Position numbers and translations under genes: made by a program | Notes under the pieces: model-generated | The model's input: the letters and a program-made list of their open reading frames with translations, nothing else | The model's database searches: none | What the model was told of the DNA's origin: nothing | Origin: Candidatus Competibacter sp. | GTDB lineage: Bacteria; Pseudomonadota; Gammaproteobacteria; Competibacterales; Competibacteraceae | Assembly: GCA_029624815.1 (NCBI GenBank) | Contig: JARSSH010000006.1 | Span: forward strand, 1 to 34,854 | Direction of reading: 5' to 3' | Length of the DNA: 34,854 nt | Part shown: one piece after another, positions 1-7,281 of the stretch | How the letters are laid out: each line of letters starts with the position of its first letter | Position numbering within the stretch: the stretch's first letter is position 1

Positions 1-42
1 GTCGTTCTCGCCTTCCTCGCACTCTTAATTAGGAGATCGTAA
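1..42 (+). CDS. C-terminal tail of an upstream gene (partial)
   Basis: Frame 1 from the window edge reads VVLAFLALLIRRS and then TAA at 40-42. A hydrophobic run followed by a short Arg-rich end is what a terminal membrane helix or a C-terminal sorting signal (PEP-CTERM/IPTL type) looks like, but only 13 residues are visible, so neither can be claimed. The stop lies 65 nt before the GTG of the next gene on the same strand, so the two could be co-transcribed. The gap contains a small hairpin (GCGGCC at 63-68, GGCCGC at 73-78). Confidence 0.35.
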   Translation, partial: VVLAFLALLIRRS

Positions 43-107
43 ACAGGCTCTAAGGAAGGGGTGCGGCCTAACGGCCGCTACTCCGCCACGACATCAGGGG
101 AGAAACT

Positions 108-1295
108 GTGGGAAAAGACATGCGCGCACAGGCGCAAGCGGCTAACGCTGTCCGGGCGATCACGTATCCACTGGGCGAAGAGCAGGCATTATGGCCTGAA
201 GGCGGCAATCGCCTGTTCGTGCTCAACGATACCGCCCAGATCATTTGGGAAGGGCATCACGCGGGGCTATCGGCGGTGGCCATCGCTAAGCGACTGGCGA
301 GGCGGTTCGCCGTACCGACCGAGCAAGCCGAGCAAGACACCCGAATGGCTTTAGCGCAGTGGCATCAAGACGGGCTGCTGGGTGGAACCGGCCATACCCC
401 CCAAGAGCAGCCGAAAGATGCCGCACCGGAGCGGTTGCCTTCGCTTCCCCTGCCTGTCGCCGAGCACAATTACCGGCTGGGTGGTTTGATTCTGCGGCTT
501 CGTCTCGGTGACACGAGCCTGAGCCAGATCCTGCTCCCGCTACTCCAGCACCTGACCGTTGCTCCGACCACGCCGGCGGACACGGTCTTCGACTTGGCCC
601 CTGATCCCTGCGGCTTCGGGTATCTGTTAGGCCAGGACGGGTGCGTGTTGGCATGTAACCTCCGCCAGGACGATAGCATCGCTCACCTTCTCTACCATCT
701 CTTGGCCTATTCCTGCAGCGGTACGCTCGCGCTGGCTGTGCTGCACGCCGCCGCCGTCGCCGACGGTGATTCATGCCTGATCATGGCCGCGCCTGGCGGC
801 AGTGGAAAAACCACGTTGACGGCTGCGTTGCTGGCGGAGGGTTGGGACTATCTGGGCGATGACATGATTCTGCTCAGTCGGGATGAACCACCCCGCACTT
901 GGCCCTTGCCGGGACCACTATGCCTGAAAGCCGGTAGTTGGCCGGTACTGAAGCCTTATTACCCCAACCTTGATACGTGGCCAGTGTTGCAACGCTGGGA
1001 TCAACCGGTTCGCTACCTACCACCCCCACAACCATCGCTGGATCGCGCCTGGCCGATTCGTGGCCTGATTTTTCCCGCTTACCAACCCGGTCACTCCACC
1101 AGTCTTGAATCGCTCACCGCCAGCGCGGCCTTGCGGTTGCTGATCGCCGCCAATGTCCGGTGGCGTCTACCCCTGACCGCCCATGATATCGGCATGCTCA
1201 TCGGTTGGCTGAACCACCTACCGGCCTATCGGTTGACATACGACACGCTCTCCGAGGCGGTCGCTGCTGTTCGTATCGTCGGAACCGCTTCATGA
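108..1295 (+). CDS. PqqD-domain / HprK-related kinase fusion protein
   Basis: This 395-residue protein has two parts. Residues about 15-95 resemble PqqD, a small peptide-binding chaperone fold (RiPP recognition element): a LNDTAQIIWEG stretch, then a winged-helix-like region ending in WHQDGLLGG. Residues about 120-395 resemble HPr kinase-related proteins: HAAAVA at 213-218, a Walker A loop APGGSGKTTL at 228-237, and an acidic GDD at 250-252. In HprK such elements bind ATP and catalyse phosphotransfer to a serine. Related kinases phosphorylate lasso-peptide precursors, and HprK-related 'HPr-rel-A' systems pair such a kinase with a separate PqqD-like protein; here the two are fused. The start is GTG at 108, chosen for AGGGGAG at 96-102; ATG 120 is the alternative. 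The next gene encodes a small peptide with a YxxPxL motif, a plausible substrate. The substrate assignment is inference; the two domains are fairly clear. Confidence 0.8.
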   Translation: MGKDMRAQAQAANAVRAITYPLGEEQALWPEGGNRLFVLNDTAQIIWEGHHAGLSAVAIAKRLARRFAVPTEQAEQDTRMALAQWHQDGLLGGTGHTPQEQPKDAAPERLPSLPLPVAEHNYRLGGLILRLRLGDTSLSQILLPLLQHLTVAPTTPADTVFDLAPDPCGFGYLLGQDGCVLACNLRQDDSIAHLLYHLLAYSCSGTLALAVLHAAAVADGDSCLIMAAPGGSGKTTLTAALLAEGWDYLGDDMILLSRDEPPRTWPLPGPLCLKAGSWPVLKPYYPNLDTWPVLQRWDQPVRYLPPPQPSLDRAWPIRGLIFPAYQPGHSTSLESLTASAALRLLIAANVRWRLPLTAHDIGMLIGWLNHLPAYRLTYDTLSEAVAAVRIVGTAS

Positions 1296-1333
1296 TCAAA
1301 CAAACCGATACCCAAAACCACAGGGAGATTGCA

Positions 1334-1573
1334 ATGAATTCCCCTCATGACGATTCTGCTGTCCCCTTTAATCCTGAGCAACTCTCACCGTCTACCGAGC
1401 AGGAACCGGTTAATCCCGCACGTCGCGCGTGGATCAAATCAATAGGCAAAAAAGCCACATACACCGCGCCAACTCTGGTCGCCATAACGCTTACGCACAA
1501 AGCACTTGGTCAAGGGTTCGGTTCGCCGCCGCCGGCGCCGTCAGGGTCACCAAGAAGCTTTCGGCCTAGATAG
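1334..1573 (+). CDS. Small YxxPxL-motif peptide, candidate RiPP-like precursor
   Basis: This 79-residue protein follows the PqqD-HprK gene after 38 nt, with AGGGAG at 1322-1327 in front of ATG 1334. An in-frame ATG at 1292 overlapping the upstream stop would add 14 residues; the better ribosome site favours 1334. The N-terminal 28 residues are polar and acidic. Then come RRAWIK (30-35), a Lys pair and YTAPTL at 43-48, which fits the YxxPxL leader motif bound by PqqD-like recognition domains in lasso-peptide pathways. The tail from Gly60 is rich in Gly, Pro, Ser and Arg, with Ser at 64, 70, 72 and 75. No Asp/Glu ring acceptor is present, so a lasso fold is unlikely. RR followed by a weakly hydrophobic stretch could alternatively be a Tat-like signal. 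The function is inferred from context and one motif. Confidence 0.6.
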   Translation: MNSPHDDSAVPFNPEQLSPSTEQEPVNPARRAWIKSIGKKATYTAPTLVAITLTHKALGQGFGSPPPAPSGSPRSFRPR

Positions 1574-1617: not shown

Positions 1618-2346
1618 CTAACTCAGCAACGTCGGCCTGATTTCATCGATTAAAGAATGGGGATGCCTCACGCAAACGGTGCGTCCCGAAAAGCGGGCCA
1701 CGCCGTCTTCCTCCAGCCGGCCGATGATTCGGGACAGGGTTTCATGCCGGGCGCCGATCATGGAGGCCAGATCGCGCCGCGACAACGGTAACTCCATCAC
1801 CCGGCTGCCGTCGGTGGCGGTTCGCCCATGGCGGTTCATCAACGCCAGCAGCAGGTGGACAAACTTGGTGCGGTTGGAAAGCGTCGCGTTCCGTACCAGC
1901 TTGTCGTGCGCGTCGTCCACATCGGTCACCACCCGGCGGAGAAACTGCTGGCCCAAGGCCGGGTTTCTTCCCAGCAAAATCCGGACGGTGTGCCTGTCGA
2001 TGAAGCAAATCTTGCTTGGCCCCAGCGCTTCGGCGCCGAAACGGCGCTCCTCGTCGAGCAGCACGCCGCGATAACCCAGGGTTTCACCGGGGTAGACGAG
2101 GTGGAGCAGAACCGAGTTGCCCACCTCATCGATCTTGCGAATGGCCGCCCCGCCCGAAACGATGCAATAAACGCCGTGGCTGGGTTCGCCTATCGCAAAG
2201 ATCGACTCGCCGGCATGATACTTGCGGCACTTTTTCGCCTGCGCCAACAACTTGAGTTCCTCACCGGTCAGGACGCTCCATTCGTTGCGTTCGCGCGGCA
2301 GGCACTCAAAACAGTTGACGCCAGGCATGGTTTTGGGTCTTTCCAC
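1618..2346 (-). CDS. Crp/Fnr-family transcriptional regulator
   Basis: This 242-residue protein has the full Crp/Fnr layout: an N-terminal cyclic-nucleotide-binding-like beta-roll (about 25-145, with the YHAGESIFAIGEPSHGVYCIVSG signature), a dimerisation helix (about 150-180), and a C-terminal helix-turn-helix (LSRRDLASMIGARHETLSRIIGRLEEDG). Cysteines sit at 12 and 15 (CFEC), but the third N-terminal cysteine of classical FNR is not in the expected place, so a canonical [4Fe-4S] sensor cannot be assumed. The GTG start at 2346 has GAGGG seven bases upstream; ATG 2328 is an alternative. It diverges from a c-type cytochrome gene across 139 bp that contain a perfect palindrome, so it may regulate that gene or itself. 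The hydrogenase accessory genes just beyond make a redox or oxygen role plausible, but the ligand is unknown. Confidence 0.88.
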   Translation of the reverse strand: MERPKTMPGVNCFECLPRERNEWSVLTGEELKLLAQAKKCRKYHAGESIFAIGEPSHGVYCIVSGGAAIRKIDEVGNSVLLHLVYPGETLGYRGVLLDEERRFGAEALGPSKICFIDRHTVRILLGRNPALGQQFLRRVVTDVDDAHDKLVRNATLSNRTKFVHLLLALMNRHGRTATDGSRVMELPLSRRDLASMIGARHETLSRIIGRLEEDGVARFSGRTVCVRHPHSLIDEIRPTLLS

Positions 2347-2447
2347 ATCCGCACCCTCTTTTAGCTATATTTTTTGCGATGCAGCGTCACGGTTTCGTTC
2401 AGCCCCGCATTCAGGGATATTACTGAAACTCATGACTATAATTGGAT

Positions 2448-2461
2448 TGAACTATAGTTCA
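2448..2461. promoter_or_regulatory. Perfect 14-bp palindrome, candidate Crp/Fnr-type operator
   Basis: TGAACTATAGTTCA is a perfect inverted repeat in the divergent Crp/Fnr-cytochrome intergenic region, ending 24 bp before the cytochrome ATG. A TATAAT at 2437-2442 lies just upstream, without a good -35. The palindrome would therefore fall near the transcription start, which suits repression. It keeps TTGA but does not match the FNR consensus (TTGAT-N4-ATCAA). Confidence 0.45.
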
Positions 2462-2485
2462 GGAATGGCCGGAAGGAGATTAGCG

Positions 2486-2935
2486 ATGTCAAGAATCCCG
2501 ATGCAGCCTCCGTTGGCGATCACCATCGCCCTGCTGGTTCTAGGCGGATCGTTGTGGGTGATCGATCCCAGCGATGGTCTCTTCTCCCTGTTTCCGGGGG
2601 CGTCGGCCAAGGAAAACTACCAATACGCCAGCAAGCCGATGGGTTGGAACGGACCCGCCGGGCAATGCGTGGTCTGCCATAACCTGGAAAAAGGCGACGC
2701 CTATCGGATCGGCCCCAATCTTTGGAACATCGTCGGCGCACCGAAAGCCAACGCCCGAGGTTTTGGCTATTCCCACGCGTTGGCCACGGCGGGCGGAGCG
2801 TGGACCGAGCAGGATTTGGATCGGTATCTCGCCAACCCCAATCAATTTCTGCCCGGCACGAGTAAAACGATTTCCGGTCTGGAGCCCCAGGAGCGCACCA
2901 AAATTATCGCTTTTCTGGCGACGCTGAAGGACTGA
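2486..2935 (+). CDS. Class I c-type cytochrome with one CxxCH and no downstream Met
   Basis: This 149-residue protein has an N-terminal hydrophobic segment (about 9-26, signal peptide or anchor) and a single haem-binding CVVCH at 61-65. The fold follows mitochondrial/bacterial cytochrome c: GPNLWNIVGAP (76-86), RGFGYSHAL (91-99), then NPNQFLPGTSKTISGL (117-132) and a final helix. Its role is periplasmic electron transfer. The usual PGTKM distal ligand is replaced: the loop reads PGTSKT, and no Met occurs after the haem motif (the only ones are at 1, 6 and 52). Haem coordination is thus atypical or five-coordinate. The start at 2486 is set by GGAAGGAG at 2471-2478; frames further upstream are open but cross the promoter region. 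It is divergent from the Crp/Fnr gene and 129 nt before HupE. Confidence 0.88.
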   Translation: MSRIPMQPPLAITIALLVLGGSLWVIDPSDGLFSLFPGASAKENYQYASKPMGWNGPAGQCVVCHNLEKGDAYRIGPNLWNIVGAPKANARGFGYSHALATAGGAWTEQDLDRYLANPNQFLPGTSKTISGLEPQERTKIIAFLATLKD

Positions 2936-3064
2936 GCCATCCGAATCATCCGACCGGCCACAAGTCGCTGATTGATGGTTTTTCTTAATTTTTCCTCGGG
3001 TACGCTTGTTACGCCTAAACGGTTGTCGATTGTTTCAATTCATCATCACGGGGGGAGCGCACAC

Positions 3065-3655
3065 ATGCAAGCACTGTTGGACAAACGTAGATGGGTGGCC
3101 TTGGCGTTGTTGTGGACGGCCAGTAGCGTCGCAAACGCCCATACATCGGGATTGCCGCACATGGATTTCGCCACCGGCCTTGGACACCCATTCAATGGTC
3201 TGGATCACATTCTGGCGATGGTGGCGGTCGGGTTGTGGGCGGCGCAACGGGGCGGTCGCGCCCTGTGGCTGGTTCCGCTGACTTTCGTGCTGACCATGGC
3301 GGCGGGCGGCGCGCTCGGCTTTCTGGACGTGCCGCTGCCCATGGTGGAACTGGGGATCGCCGGCTCGGTGTTGGTGTTCGGGGTGCTGGTGGCGCTGGCC
3401 TCGCGGCTGCCTCTAACGGTCAGCATGGCGCTGGCCGGGCTGTTCGCTCTGTTCCACGGCCACGCCCACGGCGCGGAAATGGCGGCGGAATCCAGCGCGT
3501 TATGGTACGGCTTGGGCTTCATGCTCGCCACCGCGACGCTGCATACCATCGGTATCGGCACTGTGCTGGCGGCGCGGCCGGGCATGCCGGCGCGCTTGGT
3601 GCGAATCGGCGGCGCGGCGATCGCGGCCAGCGGCGTGCTGCTACTGGCGACTTAA
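3065..3655 (+). CDS. hupE: HupE/UreJ-family membrane protein, probable nickel uptake
   Basis: This 196-residue protein has a signal sequence (about 8-25, ending SVANAHT) followed by five or six membrane helices. The family signature HPFNGLDHILAMVAVGLWAAQ follows the mature N-terminus. A second His cluster, FHGHAHGAEMA, lies in the middle; these histidines are thought to bind Ni2+ in HupE/UreJ proteins. The start is ATG 3065 behind GGGGGAG; the open frame extends upstream without a convincing ribosome site. It directly precedes hypA and hypB, the nickel-delivery proteins, so supplying nickel for [NiFe]-hydrogenase maturation is the best reading. Metal specificity (Ni versus Co) cannot be read from sequence. 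Confidence 0.88.
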   Translation: MQALLDKRRWVALALLWTASSVANAHTSGLPHMDFATGLGHPFNGLDHILAMVAVGLWAAQRGGRALWLVPLTFVLTMAAGGALGFLDVPLPMVELGIAGSVLVFGVLVALASRLPLTVSMALAGLFALFHGHAHGAEMAAESSALWYGLGFMLATATLHTIGIGTVLAARPGMPARLVRIGGAAIAASGVLLLAT

Positions 3656-3729
3656 ACCGTTTCTCTCTCCCGGCCTTCCCCACACGCCATGCGGGGCAGA
3701 CCGGGATCGCCTTGCCGACAACGTCCGTC

Positions 3730-4071
3730 ATGCACGAACTTTCGCTGTGCGAAAGCATCATCGAAACCCTCACCGTTCAAACCCAACGGCAGGGGTTTAG
3801 CCGGGTGCGGCGGGTGTGGCTGGAAATCGGCGCGCTGGCCAATGTCGAGCTGGACGCCTTGCGCTTCGCCTTCGAGATCGCCCGCCGGGATACGGTGGCG
3901 GACACGGCGGAGCTGGATATCGTTACCCTACCGGGTCAAGCCTATTGCCTGGACTGCGCGCAAGCGATCGCGGTCCATCAGTATTACGATCCCTGCCCGT
4001 GCTGCGGTGGTTTTCAGTGGCGGCTGACGGGCGGCAACGAAATGCGGATCAAGGAATTGGAGGTCGAGTAA
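3730..4071 (+). CDS. hypA: Hydrogenase maturation nickel metallochaperone HypA
   Basis: This 113-residue protein has the usual HypA length. It starts MHELSL, where Met1-His2 (with Glu3 nearby) forms the nickel site. It carries the structural zinc site made of two cysteine pairs, C73xxC76 and C89xC91/C92 (YCLDC and PCPCCGG). HypA hands nickel with HypB to the hydrogenase large subunit after the Fe(CN)2CO centre is in place. The gene begins 74 nt after hupE, and its TAA (4069-4071) abuts the ATG of hypB, so the two are translationally coupled. The open frame continues upstream through hupE, but MHEL is the invariant family start. Confidence 0.96.
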   Translation: MHELSLCESIIETLTVQTQRQGFSRVRRVWLEIGALANVELDALRFAFEIARRDTVADTAELDIVTLPGQAYCLDCAQAIAVHQYYDPCPCCGGFQWRLTGGNEMRIKELEVE

Positions 4072-4905
4072 ATGTGCAGCACCTGCGGTTGCGGCGAAAA
4101 CGAATTGACCATCCACGCGCACGACCATGCGCACGACCCTCCTCACGCGCATCCCCACGCTCACGATCATGCGCCCGAAGTTCGGCGGCTCGCCCTGGAA
4201 CAGGACATTCTGACCAAAAACGCCGAATTCGCCGCCGGCAACCGGCGCCTGTTCGCGGAACGGGGCGTCTTGGTTCTGAACCTGGTTTCCAGCCCCGGTT
4301 CCGGCAAGACCACGCTGCTGGCTCGGACGGTTCAGACCCTGCGCACCGAATTTCCGGTCGCGGTCATCGGTGGCGACCAACAGACCGCCAACGATGCCGA
4401 GCGTATCCGCGCCGCCGGCGCGCCCGCCCTGCAAATCAACACCGGCAAGGGCTGCCACCTGGACGCGCACGGTATCGGTCACGCCCTGGAACGGCTGCCG
4501 CTGCCGGAACATGGGGTGCTGTTCATCGAAAACGTCGGCAATCTGGTCTGCCCGGCGGATTTCGATCTGGGCGAGGCGTGCAAGGTCGTGGTGCTATCGG
4601 TGACCGAAGGCGAGGACAAGCCGCTGAAATATCCGAATATGTTCGCCGCCGCCGGCTTGATGCTGCTCAACAAGACCGACCTGCTGCCCCATCTGGATTT
4701 CGACGTGGCCCGCTGCCTGGACTACGCACGGCGGGTCAATCCCGACATTCGAATTCTGCAACTATCCGCTCGCAGCGGCGAAGGCATGGACGCCTGGCTG
4801 GACTGGCTGCGGCAGGGCCAACGGTCGGCGCTGGCGCGGCAAGTCAGTCGCTTGGAAGCGGATCTGGCCGCGGCGCGGGCGCGACTGGCCGAGAGCGCCG
4901 CCTGA
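4072..4905 (+). CDS. hypB: Hydrogenase maturation GTPase HypB
   Basis: This 277-residue SIMIBI-class GTPase drives nickel insertion into hydrogenase. The N-terminus carries the high-affinity metal motif CSTCGC (2-7), followed by a His-rich stretch (about 15-33) that may store nickel or zinc. The G domain has a P-loop SSPGSGKT at 73-80, the GGDQQT switch region at 100-105, GKGCHLD at 125-131 (Cys/His of the second metal site at the dimer interface), ENVGNLVCP at 153-161, and NKTD at 200-203 for guanine recognition. The last 40 residues are Ala/Arg-rich helix. The ATG follows the hypA stop with no gap; hypF starts 45 nt downstream. Confidence 0.97.
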
Positions 4906-4950
4906 CCCGAATCCCGAACCATCGTCCGCCGTTGGCGGCAAAGGTGTCGC

Positions 4951-7281
4951 ATGACCGCGCCGCAACGCCGCGCCATCCGAATCGGCGGTCAGGTGCAGGG
5001 CGTGGGATTCCGCCCATTTGTATACCGCTTGGCGGTCGCGCGCCGGCTGAGCGGTTTCGTCCGCAACGACGGCGCGGGCGTGACCATCGAGATTCAGGGC
5101 GATCCCGCCGCGCTGGACGATTTTCTCCACGCTTTGCGTCAACCGCCGCCGCTGGCCCGCATCGACGCGCTCGGCATCGGCGAATTGACTCCGCATCGGA
5201 TGGAATCCGCGTTCGTGATCGCCGCCAGCGACGCCGGCGCGATCGGCGCCGACATCACGCCGGATACGGCGGTTTGCGAGGACTGTCTGGAAGAACTGTT
5301 CGATCCCGGCGACCGCCGTTACCGCTATCCCTTCGTCAACTGCACCAACTGCGGTCCCCGCTACACCATTACCGCCGCCCTGCCCTACGACCGCCCCAAT
5401 ACCAGCATGGCCGGTTTCCCCCTGTGCCCGGATTGCGTCCGAGAATACGATGATCCGGGCGACCGCCGCTTTCACGCCCAACCCAACGCCTGTCCGGTCT
5501 GCGGTCCCCGCCTCGCTTTGTACGACGCCACTGGCAAGACGGTCGAAGCGGACGATGTCATCGCCGCCGCGCTGGAACGTCTGTGCGCCGGCGAGATTCT
5601 GGCCATTAAGGGACTGGGCGGTTTCCACTTGGTCTGCGACGCCCAAAACGCCGCCAGCGTCGCCCGCCTGCGCCAACGCAAGCAGCGGGACGCCAAGCCG
5701 TTCGCGGTCATGGCCGCCAACCTTGCCTCGCTGGCGTGCTGGGTGGAAAGCAGCGAGACCGAACGGCAATTGCTGGAATCGCCACAACGACCCATCGTGC
5801 TGCTGCGCTCCCCTCGCCCTTCGGGAGAGGGGTCGGGGGTGAGGGTCGATTTACTCAAGCAACGCTTGCCCGGCATCGCGCCGGGCTTGGCGTATCTGGG
5901 CGTCCTGCTGCCCTACACGCCATTGCATTATCTGTTGTTCCACCAGGCGGCCGGCCGACCTGACGGAACGGCCTGGTTGGCACGGCCACACCCGCTGCTG
6001 CTGGTGATGACCAGCGCCAATCCCGGTGGCGAGCCACTGGTGATCGACGACGGCGAAGCGGTGCGGCGGCTGCAAAACATCGCCGACGGCTTCGTCACCC
6101 ACAACCGGGCGATTCTGGTCCGCTGCGACGACAGCGTGGTGGCTGACAAAACCTTTATCCGCCGCGCCCGCGGCCACACTCCGCAAGCCATTCGTCTGCC
6201 TCAGGCCGGCCCTTCGACGCTGGCGCTGGGCGGTTATCTCAAGAATACCCTGTGCCTGACCCACGCTGACCGGGCCTATCTCTCCCCCCACATCGGCAGC
6301 CTCGACAATGCCGCCACTTGCCGGGCCTTGGAAGAAGCCATGACCCACTTGCAGGGCATCCTGCGCATCGCGCCGGAGCGGGTCGCCCGCGACCTGCATC
6401 CGGATTTTCCCAGCAGCCGGCTGGCGGCGGCTTACGCGGCGGAGCGGAATTTGCCCTGTATCGCCGTGCAGCACCACCATGCCCACATCGCGGCGGTCGC
6501 GGCCGAACACGGTCTGCGGGAACCGATTCTGGGGCTGGCGCTGGATGGCGTGGGCCTGGGCACGAACGGCGGCATCTGGGGCGGAGAACTGCTGTGGGTG
6601 AATGGGGCGAACTTCGAGCGGCTCGGTCATCTGCGACCGCTGCCCCTGCCCGGCGGCGACCGGGGCGCCCGCGAACCGTGGCGACTGGCGGTGACGGTGT
6701 TGCATCTGCTGGAAAGGGATGAAGAGATCGACCGCCGCTTCGGCGCCAGGGCGGCGCTCATCCGGCAAATGCTGGACCAACGCGTCAACACCCCCGAAAC
6801 CAGCAGCGCCGGCCGCCTGTTCGACGCCGCCGCCGCCGTGCTGGGCGTGCGGGAGGTCAACGACTACGAGGGGCAGGCGGCGATGGAGCTGGAAGCGCTG
6901 GCGCACCGCCACGGCCCAGAGCGACCGCTGGCGGAAGGTTTCCTCTTGCGCGACGACGGCGTGCTGGACTTGCTGCCGTTGTTGGCCGTCTTGGCCTACG
7001 GCATGGAACCGGGCCGGGGCGCGGCCCGCTTCCACGCCACCCTGACGCTGGCGCTGAGCGAATGGCTGCGCTGGGCACGCGACCGAACCGGCTTGGAACA
7101 GGTAGCGCTGGGCGGCGGCTGTTTTCTCAACCGTCTGCTGGGCGAGCAACTCCGAACCCGACTGGAAGCGGCCGGCTGGCGGGTACTGACCGCCCGGCAG
7201 GCGCCACCCAACGACGGCGGTTTAAGCCTGGGTCAGGCGTGGGTGGCGACATTGACCGAACCGGGTCGATCCCTTTTTTGA
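4951..7281 (+). CDS. hypF: Carbamoyltransferase HypF (cyanide-ligand synthesis)
   Basis: This 776-residue protein converts carbamoyl phosphate and ATP to carbamoyl-AMP and transfers the carbamoyl group to the C-terminal Cys of HypE. Domains in order: an acylphosphatase-like domain (about 6-95, GQVQGVGFRPFVYRLA with its catalytic Arg); paired zinc-finger motifs (about 105-190: CEDC, CTNCGPRYT, CPDC, CPVCGP); a YrdC-like domain (about 200-390, KGLGGFHLVCDA and MTSANPGGEP); and a Kae1-like domain (about 400-770, QHHHAHIAAVAAEHGL, LALDGVGLG, SSAGRLFDAAAAVLG, LGGGCFLNRLL). A palindromic dispersed repeat is inserted in frame at 5805-5846 inside the YrdC-like domain, adding residues that read about SPRPSGEGSGVRV. 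All recognised motifs on both sides are intact, so the protein is probably still functional. It is the last gene of the first hyp half-cluster. Confidence 0.96.
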   Translation: MTAPQRRAIRIGGQVQGVGFRPFVYRLAVARRLSGFVRNDGAGVTIEIQGDPAALDDFLHALRQPPPLARIDALGIGELTPHRMESAFVIAASDAGAIGADITPDTAVCEDCLEELFDPGDRRYRYPFVNCTNCGPRYTITAALPYDRPNTSMAGFPLCPDCVREYDDPGDRRFHAQPNACPVCGPRLALYDATGKTVEADDVIAAALERLCAGEILAIKGLGGFHLVCDAQNAASVARLRQRKQRDAKPFAVMAANLASLACWVESSETERQLLESPQRPIVLLRSPRPSGEGSGVRVDLLKQRLPGIAPGLAYLGVLLPYTPLHYLLFHQAAGRPDGTAWLARPHPLLLVMTSANPGGEPLVIDDGEAVRRLQNIADGFVTHNRAILVRCDDSVVADKTFIRRARGHTPQAIRLPQAGPSTLALGGYLKNTLCLTHADRAYLSPHIGSLDNAATCRALEEAMTHLQGILRIAPERVARDLHPDFPSSRLAAAYAAERNLPCIAVQHHHAHIAAVAAEHGLREPILGLALDGVGLGTNGGIWGGELLWVNGANFERLGHLRPLPLPGGDRGAREPWRLAVTVLHLLERDEEIDRRFGARAALIRQMLDQRVNTPETSSAGRLFDAAAAVLGVREVNDYEGQAAMELEALAHRHGPERPLAEGFLLRDDGVLDLLPLLAVLAYGMEPGRGAARFHATLTLALSEWLRWARDRTGLEQVALGGGCFLNRLLGEQLRTRLEAAGWRVLTARQAPPNDGGLSLGQAWVATLTEPGRSLF
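5805..5846 (+). repeat. Dispersed GC-rich palindromic repeat inside hypF
   Basis: About 42 bp, of the form CCCCTC...GGGAGAGGGG followed by TCGGGGGTGAGGG. It is nearly identical to the element near 26000-26062: from GCGCTCCCCTC to GGTGAGGG the two differ at only a few bases, mainly in the loop. This is a REP/MITE-like element. It keeps the hypF frame open. Confidence 0.8.

Follow-up and report, generated by a model that had tools for sequence, protein, structure and literature searches.

A fused RRE–HprK-type kinase beside a YxxPxL peptide as a probable minimal phosphopeptide system in Candidatus Competibacter

The subject of this work is a pair of adjacent genes at the beginning of a 34,854-nucleotide stretch of DNA from Candidatus Competibacter sp. 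(assembly GCA_029624815.1, contig JARSSH010000006.1, positions 1 to 34,854 of the forward strand), which is referred to as the window. The first gene encodes a protein in which a PqqD-like domain, a recognition element (RRE) of the kind found with ribosomally synthesized and post-translationally modified peptides (RiPPs), is fused to an HprK-type kinase. The second encodes a 79-residue peptide with the motif YTAPTL. We consider it probable that the two form a minimal phosphopeptide system, in which the RRE grips the leader of the peptide and the fused kinase phosphorylates a serine, most likely Ser64. The proposal is drawn from sequence, namely from the domains, the catalytic residues, the motif and its conservation, the Tyr–Ser spacing and the Tyr–Asp co-occurrence described below.

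According to this proposal, the N-terminal RRE would grip YTAPTL, with Asp77 holding Tyr43 and Asn40 fixing the kink at Pro46. The grip would bring the stretch just past the leader to the fused kinase, which would phosphorylate a serine there, in the first place Ser64. That a serine is phosphorylated is plausible, as LppK and BsfK carry out this reaction on peptides with similar leaders. The peptide may then be exported, perhaps by the twin-arginine translocation (Tat) route, and cut by an ordinary signal peptidase, as is suggested by the twin arginine and by A-L-G at the leader end. It probably acts outside the cytoplasm together with a large secreted partner, because the gene of a large secreted protein adjoins the pair in the relatives.

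The fusion protein and the peptide

The N-terminal part of the fusion matched the Pfam model PqqD (PF05402) over residues 27–91 with 41.1 bits, above the gathering cut-off of 23.4. Residues 210–388 matched the NCBIfam model HprK_rel_A (TIGR04352) with 72.4 bits, below the curated cut-off of 200, and membership of that family was rejected on this score. An identity as HPr(Ser) kinase proper was also rejected, since neither TIGR00679 nor PF07475 matched the window protein at E ≤ 1. The residues His213, Gly231, Gly233, Lys234 and Asp251 are unchanged throughout two kinase alignments (n = 10 and n = 24); alignment A2 was made without the relatives' kinases L053 (which has a stop), L055 and L057. 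The AlphaFold2 model of the fusion has a pLDDT of 88.1 and a pTM of 0.85. In Foldseek comparisons the C-terminal part falls among PEP carboxykinases and HPr kinases, and the TbiB1–leader complex matched the N-terminal part with a TM-score of up to 0.80 by target length. The matches listed by VIA-align were PEP carboxykinase chains over residues 95–395, which is uninformative on the RRE. Searched against the PDB as a single sequence, the RRE part produced one meaningless match; a profile search worked instead and is described below.

A preliminary description of this DNA, made from the letters alone, had claimed a PqqD–HprK fusion with an intact Walker A, followed directly by a gene for a 79-residue peptide with YTAPTL at residues 43–48 and serines at 64, 70, 72 and 75 in its tail. 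Both claims are borne out by the domain matches, the GGSGKTT motif, the invariant catalytic residues and the reading frame itself. The tail is rich in Pro, Ser and Arg. The peptide may alternatively start further upstream, at an ATG at 1292 that overlaps the kinase stop as ATGA, which would give 93 amino acids. YxxPxL arises by chance in 0.8% of shuffles of the window peptide and RR...YxxPxL in 0.02%; conservation beside the kinase is the stronger evidence for the motif. Between the window and the closest relative, G002, the peptide leader shows 0.055 nonsynonymous substitutions per nonsynonymous site (dN) and 0.27 synonymous substitutions per synonymous site (dS), both from few sites.

Conservation of the pair

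The pairing of the kinase with a predicted leader peptide is conserved. When the window sequences were used as queries against 144 genomes (its own included), the kinase found a match in 38 and the peptide in 6. Within the window's family the peptide adjoins the kinase at 9 of 11 other fused-kinase loci, one of the 11 being a G002 gene split over two contigs. The family peptides have 67–86 amino acids, with starts as in alignment A1, and the twin arginine, Ala41, Tyr43 and Pro46 are invariant across ten of them. The peptide gene lies 3′ of the kinase gene in the window and in L047–L051, and 5′ of it in L053, L054, L056 and L057.

Two leader hidden Markov models, built from 10 fused-type leaders and 16 others, were run on all open reading frames (ORFs) of 80 loci with a kinase match; an 81st locus, L066, has no kinase match and was left out of this count. 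A leader-like ORF within 2 kb of the kinase and on the same strand was found at 60 of the 80 loci (E ≤ 0.05), and none elsewhere in those loci. Outside the training set, such an ORF was present near the kinase in 34/54 loci. Five of the 20 loci missed by the models (L129, L132, L153, L157 and L162) have a leader-like start by eye. In a second, named set, made up of 80 loci among the matches listed by one scan, 44 had a near leader match; there were six further matches off-zone, five on the kinase strand 2.0–2.8 kb away and one on the opposite strand, and the other loci had no match. L160 and L230 share one RRE sequence, so that at least one locus is common to the two sets. YxxP leaders in the second set occur in Thiotrichaceae (L181), Planctomycetota (L218, L221) and an alphaproteobacterium (L226).

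Of the 369 class genomes, 40 had an HprK_rel_A match above the cut-off; the 14 control genomes had none. A profile of the ten peptides matched in 20/369 class genomes (own included; E ≤ 0.01). By our reading, an HprK-type kinase shares the locus in 11 of them (about 2.4 kb off in G205), G398 has an RRE–TTL protein (TTL, tubulin-tyrosine-ligase-type enzyme), the G323 match lies near a contig end, the G075 peptide (L264) is without an RRE or a convincing kinase nearby, and the remaining six look spurious or lie outside those examined. The matches L265 and L275 were rejected as spurious by frame or position, and those of G158, G208 and G311 were called spurious from the match table alone; G248 was left out. 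In the family search 9 of 39 genomes matched, and the weaker matches in G005 (TTL type), G034, G038 and G019:C46 fall outside the kinase kind or are doubtful.

Reading of the leader by the RRE

When a profile of 11 RRE domains was compared with solved structures, the best matches were TbiB1 (2.2e-12), TfuB1 (7.6e-10) and PbaB1 (5.5e-7), followed by weaker matches to PqqD (8e-4) and LppB (0.007). In LppB, Asp70 binds the leader tyrosine and Asn33 fixes the proline kink, whereas the Trp-reading PbaB1 has Gln and Gly at these two positions and, with both residues exchanged, binds a Tyr leader much better (PMC13381572). The window RRE has Asp77 and Asn40 at the positions of Asp70 and Asn33.

The two partners vary together. 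Both an RRE and a leader were available at 111 loci; 8 of these (1 with Tyr, 7 without) are gapped in the alignment column of the Asp and were dropped, which leaves 103. A Tyr three positions before the leader proline is accompanied by the RRE Asp at 25 of 28 loci, and the Asp is present at 0 of 75 loci without this Tyr (Fisher p 6e-21). After clustering at 40% identity, the Asp occurs in 15/16 Tyr clusters versus 0/47 non-Tyr clusters. The Asn is less telling (22/28 Tyr loci, 24/75 non-Tyr loci). L182, L184 and L083, placed with the Tyr loci on a tree of weak resolution, have neither trait and fit the link. L243, with a leader Tyr and an RRE His, does not fit it; it was counted as Tyr and may be a chance match. 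We regard reading of the leader by the PqqD-like domain, as supposed in the preliminary description, as well supported at the sequence level, since YxxPxL-binding lasso RREs are its best profile matches, Asn40 and Asp77 are kept, and the Asp accompanies Tyr leaders.

Candidate phosphorylation site

A serine is present within the first six residues past the predicted leader end in 35 of 37 short-peptide representatives (20.7 in shuffled tails; 0/5,000). Counted from the leader tyrosine, a serine falls at +17 to +21 in 27/29 representatives versus 14.5 expected (0/20,000 shuffles), a range picked after seeing the data. Outside the window's family this holds for 20 of 21. The count at +18 or +19 alone, positions taken from published sites, is 22/29 versus 7.3 expected. 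The mapped sites run from Tyr-16 to Ser3 in LppA and from motif start -17 to Ser3 in BsfA (PMC13381572, PMC10368454). Redundancy filters reduced the leaders from 118 to 103 and the Tyr–Ser set from 33 to 29, and TTL-type peptides stand outside the serine counts. Cys is likewise enriched behind the leader in long proteins (46/65 versus 14.1 expected; other residues were tested too).

Because of this spacing, Ser64 is most likely the best candidate for the phosphorylated residue. The earlier suggestion that the four tail serines may be targets can be narrowed: Ser64 and Ser75 are kept in G002, where Ser70 and Ser72 are replaced by Pro and Ala. Phosphorylation of a C-terminal serine, as in PadeK, was rejected, as 0 of 10 family peptides end in Ser.

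Weighing of the explanations

Several observations weigh against the proposed phosphopeptide system. Ser64, the first serine of the window peptide in the range, lies at +21 and thus off the modal +18/19, and serine near a signal-peptide-like cleavage site may partly reflect the general composition of mature N-termini. In comparison with G002, the peptide tail has a dN of 0.18 and a dS of 0.09 (few sites), and a dN of 0.035 versus a dS of 0.055 in fusion residues 1–146 suggests that the RRE part is under little constraint over this short distance. The Phe that divides the RRE cleft in PbaB1 and LppB is Ala in the window RRE. At the TTL-type loci L279 and L280 the leader Tyr goes with an RRE Gln. 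The loci are related, so that each of the Tyr and Asp traits needs only about five changes on the tree; an independent-pairs sign test, with two pairs on supported branches, cannot reach significance. The preliminary description had asked whether peptide homologues always sit beside PqqD/HprK-related genes and keep YxxPxL, and had named kinase homologues without such a peptide nearby as contrary evidence. The nine loci and the conserved Tyr43 and Pro46 mentioned above agree with the reading. Against it stand two fused kinases of the family, L052 and L055, beside which no peptide was found (the L055 contig spans just 4.5 kb, and L052 has a PqqD score under the Pfam cut-off), and L264 (G075), a leader peptide without an RRE or a convincing kinase nearby. 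In the second locus set, 36 of the 80 loci had no near leader match.

The region around the twin arginine resembles a Tat-type signal that overlaps with the leader motif, and it could be nothing but the Tat or Sec signal of a small exported protein, with YxxPxL lying within the hydrophobic stretch and the kinase acting elsewhere. All 118 leaders collected carry the twin arginine, and their predicted -1 residue is always A, G or S, although the -1 rule is partly built in, and one relative matches the NCBIfam TAT model weakly (13.5 versus a cut-off of 16.7 bits). The window peptide itself matches no TAT model; it has RR and A-L-G, yet charges inside the hydrophobic stretch, and its hydropathy maximum over 12 residues is 1.23 versus a group median of 1.47. 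A bare export signal fails to explain the conserved Tyr, its link to the RRE Asp, the fixed Tyr–Ser spacing and the other peptide-modifying RRE fusions beside the same leader. We consider this explanation unlikely, and a leader serving both purposes is compatible with the phosphopeptide system. It is similarly unlikely that the fusion modifies the peptide in another way, the phosphate being an intermediate or the target being Ser75, a Thr or a glycosyl-phosphate made with a nucleotidyltransferase encoded elsewhere, as proposed for PsmN, which adds a hexose to phospho-Ser in pseudomycoidin (PMC9266682). Unfused HprK_rel_A loci such as L059 do carry an NTP_transf_5 gene, such a gene stands beside the pair in L057 and L261, and the window genome has one on contig C55 (213 bits). 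That copy, however, seems to be part of a separate cluster, and the ORF maps show none beside the window pair or in L048–L051.

Decay of the locus, with the pair left as a remnant after an insertion took the partner gene and possibly the promoter, appears quite improbable to us. Of the partner, 72 codons with one stop were found on contig C8, a repeat replaces the upstream gene, and the relatives' kinases L053, L055 and L057 carry stops or frame breaks. Both window ORFs are nevertheless intact with start signals in place, and kinase residues 139–395 show a dN of 0.020 versus a dS of 0.076 against G002, which speaks against decay. The contig break may be a mere assembly gap, and decay here would leave the function of the pair in the relatives unaffected. 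Finally, the pair could be the precursor and tailoring kinase of a lasso pathway. On C55 the genome has a match to Transglut_core3, and it encodes Asn-synthase domains, of which the best lie on C31 and C57; such domains are common, with a match in 13 of 14 control genomes. The preliminary description had noted that a lasso cyclase, a leader protease and an Asp/Glu ring acceptor are missing; correspondingly, the window's contig has no match to PF00733 (Asn-synthase) or PF13471 (B2-type peptidase), for which the genome matches lie on other contigs, and residues 60–79 contain no Asp or Glu. Membership of a lasso pathway was rejected on these grounds and has, in our view, hardly any probability.

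Taken as a whole, the interpretation given in the preliminary description is partly supported. A third gene, which stands beside the pair in the relatives and encodes the secreted partner, is invisible from the window alone.

Features and surroundings of the locus

Features of the locus (positions in the window)
Feature	Positions	Strand	Basis
Repeat, probably insertion element end, in place of upstream partner gene	1..51		Shared with at least 5 other contig ends
Shine-Dalgarno-like aggggaga of fusion gene	96..103	+	Sequence reading
RRE (PqqD-like)–HprK-type kinase fusion, 395 aa	108..1295	+	GTG start; Pfam and NCBIfam matches, AlphaFold2 model
RRE/PqqD-like domain, residues 27–91	186..380	+	Pfam PF05402
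Asn40	225–227	+	Equivalent to Pro-holding position of LppB
Asp77	336–338	+	Equivalent to Tyr-holding position of LppB
HprK/PEPCK-type kinase domain, residues 210–388	735..1271	+	NCBIfam HprK_rel_A match, kinase alignments, Foldseek
His213	744–746	+	Invariant in kinase alignments
Walker A GGSGKTT, residues 230–236	795–815	+	Sequence reading
Asp251	858–860	+	Invariant in kinase alignments
Shine-Dalgarno-like agggag of peptide gene	1322..1327	+	Sequence reading
Precursor-like peptide, 79 aa, ATG start	1334..1573	+	ORF next after fusion gene; family alignment
Twin arginine, residues 30–31	1421..1426	+	Invariant in 10/10 family peptides
YTAPTL, residues 43–48	1460..1477	+	Tyr43 and Pro46 invariant in 10/10 family peptides
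Variable tail (putative core), residues 60–79, behind AxA-like A-L-G	1511..1570	+	Cleavage point inferred
Ser64 (Tyr43 + 21), best phosphorylation candidate	1523..1525	+	Inferred from spacing and G002 comparison

In the relatives, the pair is adjoined by a gene for a large protein with a conserved C-terminal domain of about 390 amino acids (EWGLRLIV...FPHxDWG...GDYTSDY...). At 9 of 9 strong places outside the window genome this domain lies within a large protein next to the pair; in G002, which is part of that count, the large gene, the kinase start and the peptide are spread over two contigs. Examples are L067:2025-4355, L048, L050, L054, L056 and L057, and G008 has a weak, broken match. The domain has no Pfam match in the rows scanned. 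The N-terminal part varies: it is a subtilase in L050, it has FG-GAP repeats in L057, and in L049 and L054 it has no Pfam match. By our reading of the N-termini, the large partner would be secreted. The window genome has a further copy of the domain on contig C10 (88730-89917), with no kinase or leader ORF near it.

Homology of the window to G002 begins at position 51. The first 51 bases of the window are identical at the contig ends C30, C4, C24 and C56, with a near copy at C68 and C29. The start of C8 holds the first 72 codons of a G002-type partner gene, with one stop. This remnant and the repeat at the window start suggest that the upstream partner gene is probably interrupted in this genome; an assembly gap is the alternative.

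Downstream of the pair, positions 1618-7281 encode a minus-strand CRP/FNR-like regulator together with a cytochrome c-like protein and proteins of hydrogenase maturation (HypA/HypB/HypF-like). These names come from ORF reading; the cytochrome alone matched a model, below its cut-off. NTP_transf_5 has no match on the window's contig, and no NTP transferase, archaeal-type signal peptidase or MsbA-like exporter was found beside the pair among the ORFs read to about 9.9 kb. A second cluster of the window genome resembles the clusters of linear polyphosphorylated peptides (LPP). It lies on C55 (40000-54000; L294) and has, besides NTP_transf_5 (213 bits) and Transglut_core3 (71 bits), an MsbA-like ABC protein, an HprK/PEPCK-like protein, a radical SAM protein, an archaeal-type signal peptidase match of 28 bits (below the cut-off) and a minus-strand ORF with KAYQRPQIL.

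Other RRE fusions and leader peptides

RRE domains are joined to other enzymes beside similar leaders. In four genomes (G005, G193, G303 and G398), a TTL–PqqD fusion (PF03133, 183 bits in L270) stands beside peptides with AYxAPVLA leaders and EAEGE-type repeats (L270:875-3319 and 3839-4063; L279, L280 and L273/L281). These loci look like a leader-guided ligation or glutamylation system, on which none of the papers listed by a search of open-licence PubMed Central text was found to report. A triple fusion of a 2OG-Fe(II) oxygenase, PqqD and an HprK-type kinase (L261:1717-4785, G278:C114) adjoins a peptide with a YTPPAML leader and a Pro/Thr-rich tail, and an NTP_transf_5 gene. The same genome encodes a family 2 glycosyltransferase, PqqD and an HprK-type kinase in one protein (L142:728-2653, G278:C120), with no leader peptide found beside it. 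In L262 the PqqD domain is C-terminal to the kinase domain.

We tentatively suggest, at somewhat less than even odds, that a modular class of export substrates, both peptides and proteins, exists in Pseudomonadota and outside them. In this class a Tat-like N-terminus would double as the docking leader for an RRE, and the RRE-joined enzyme would fit the tail: an HprK kinase with Ser, a 2OG-oxygenase and kinase with Pro/Thr repeats, a TTL-type enzyme with Glu repeats. The window pair would be the minimal kinase member, and the leader Tyr, the RRE Asp and a Ser about 18–21 residues on would make up a readable code. The apparent match between tail and enzyme comes from few cases.

Further leader peptides were observed beside kinases. 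L262:4856-5179 and L263:4990-5298 are leader peptides next to kinases, and their tails consist of Gly/Ser or (SVP)n repeats. In Planctomycetota, L221:3265-3519, with a second copy upstream of the kinase, and L218:3273-3542 have Cys-rich, knottin-like tails, and a VKOR-DsbA type protein adjoins the leader peptides of L221. L134 contains an HprK-type kinase fused to two glycosyltransferase domains (4370-6775, minus strand) and, about 0.8 kb off on the opposite strand (3238-3585, plus), a peptide that combines RR and KKWTRPVV with a long poly-Thr tail. Many unfused HprK_rel_A loci (among them L059:4495-5196, L074, L078 and L160) have a protein of 190–280 amino acids behind the leader, with a Cys-rich start and a TPGYWKNH-like motif; that of L059 has no match to a Pfam or NCBIfam family.

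Comparison with known systems

In open-licence PubMed Central text, LPP and other phosphorylated RiPPs do appear, and no paper was found on an RRE–kinase fusion, on HprK with PqqD, on an RRE with twin arginine and kinase, or under the name or accession of HprK_rel_A. The main texts of the RRE-Finder papers do not contain the word kinase. If the proposed phosphopeptide system is correct, HprK_rel_A, a kinase family named by NCBI, gains likely substrates. A single protein that finds and phosphorylates its own peptide would be easy to test and engineer, and the Tyr–Asp and Tyr–Ser rules yield direct predictions. The fusion and typical HprK_rel_A members share the kinase superfamily, and a leader-like ORF lies near most of the loci examined; in typical loci such as L059, however, the PqqD-like protein is encoded by its own gene and an NTP_transf_5 gene is present as well. 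TbiB1 and TfuB1/FusB1 (PDB 5v1u, 6jx3), the best solved sequence matches of the RRE, TbiB1 also by fold, are stand-alone proteins of lasso pathways. Phospeptin is also a poly-phosphorylated RiPP; its description mentions neither HprK nor an RRE in the part available to us, and it is set apart by that description and not by enzymology (PMC9259500).

The phosphorylated lasso peptides (paeninodin with PadeK, pseudomycoidin with PsmK/PsmN, bsf with BsfK) have, like the proposed system, an HprK-type kinase acting on an RRE-read precursor, whereas the window pair lacks the macrolactam cyclase, the B2 peptidase and the ring acceptor. PadeK and its relatives modify a C-terminal Ser, which the window-family peptides do not have. 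LppK and BsfK are HprK-like, helped by an RRE, and phosphorylate core Ser3 behind YxxP leaders (PMC13381572, PMC10368454). BsfK of Bradymonas needs the RRE protein BsfB1 for efficiency, its Ser3 lies at leader Tyr+19, and its His-Gly-Lys-Ser-Asp set matches the catalytic residues of the fusion (PMC10368454).

LPP were described in 2026 from the lpp cluster of Paenibacillus alginolyticus and are said to be restricted to Bacillota (PMC13381572). If the window pair acts as proposed, leader-guided peptide phosphorylation is not confined to that phylum and reaches Pseudomonadota and Planctomycetota. Both systems have a YxxP leader, an RRE, an HprK-like kinase, no cyclase, and a conserved N-terminus with a variable C-terminus, and in LPP a Ser shortly behind the leader, Ser3 of the core, carries multiple phosphates. 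The RRE is a discrete protein in LPP and is fused to the kinase here, the NTP transferase, signal peptidase and exporter genes are not adjacent here, and the leader carries a Tat-like RR. By the published gene set, the window pair was rejected as an LPP system because of the fused RRE and the three accessory genes that are not adjacent. By analogy, it would work like the kinase step of LPP and of the phosphorylated lasso peptides.

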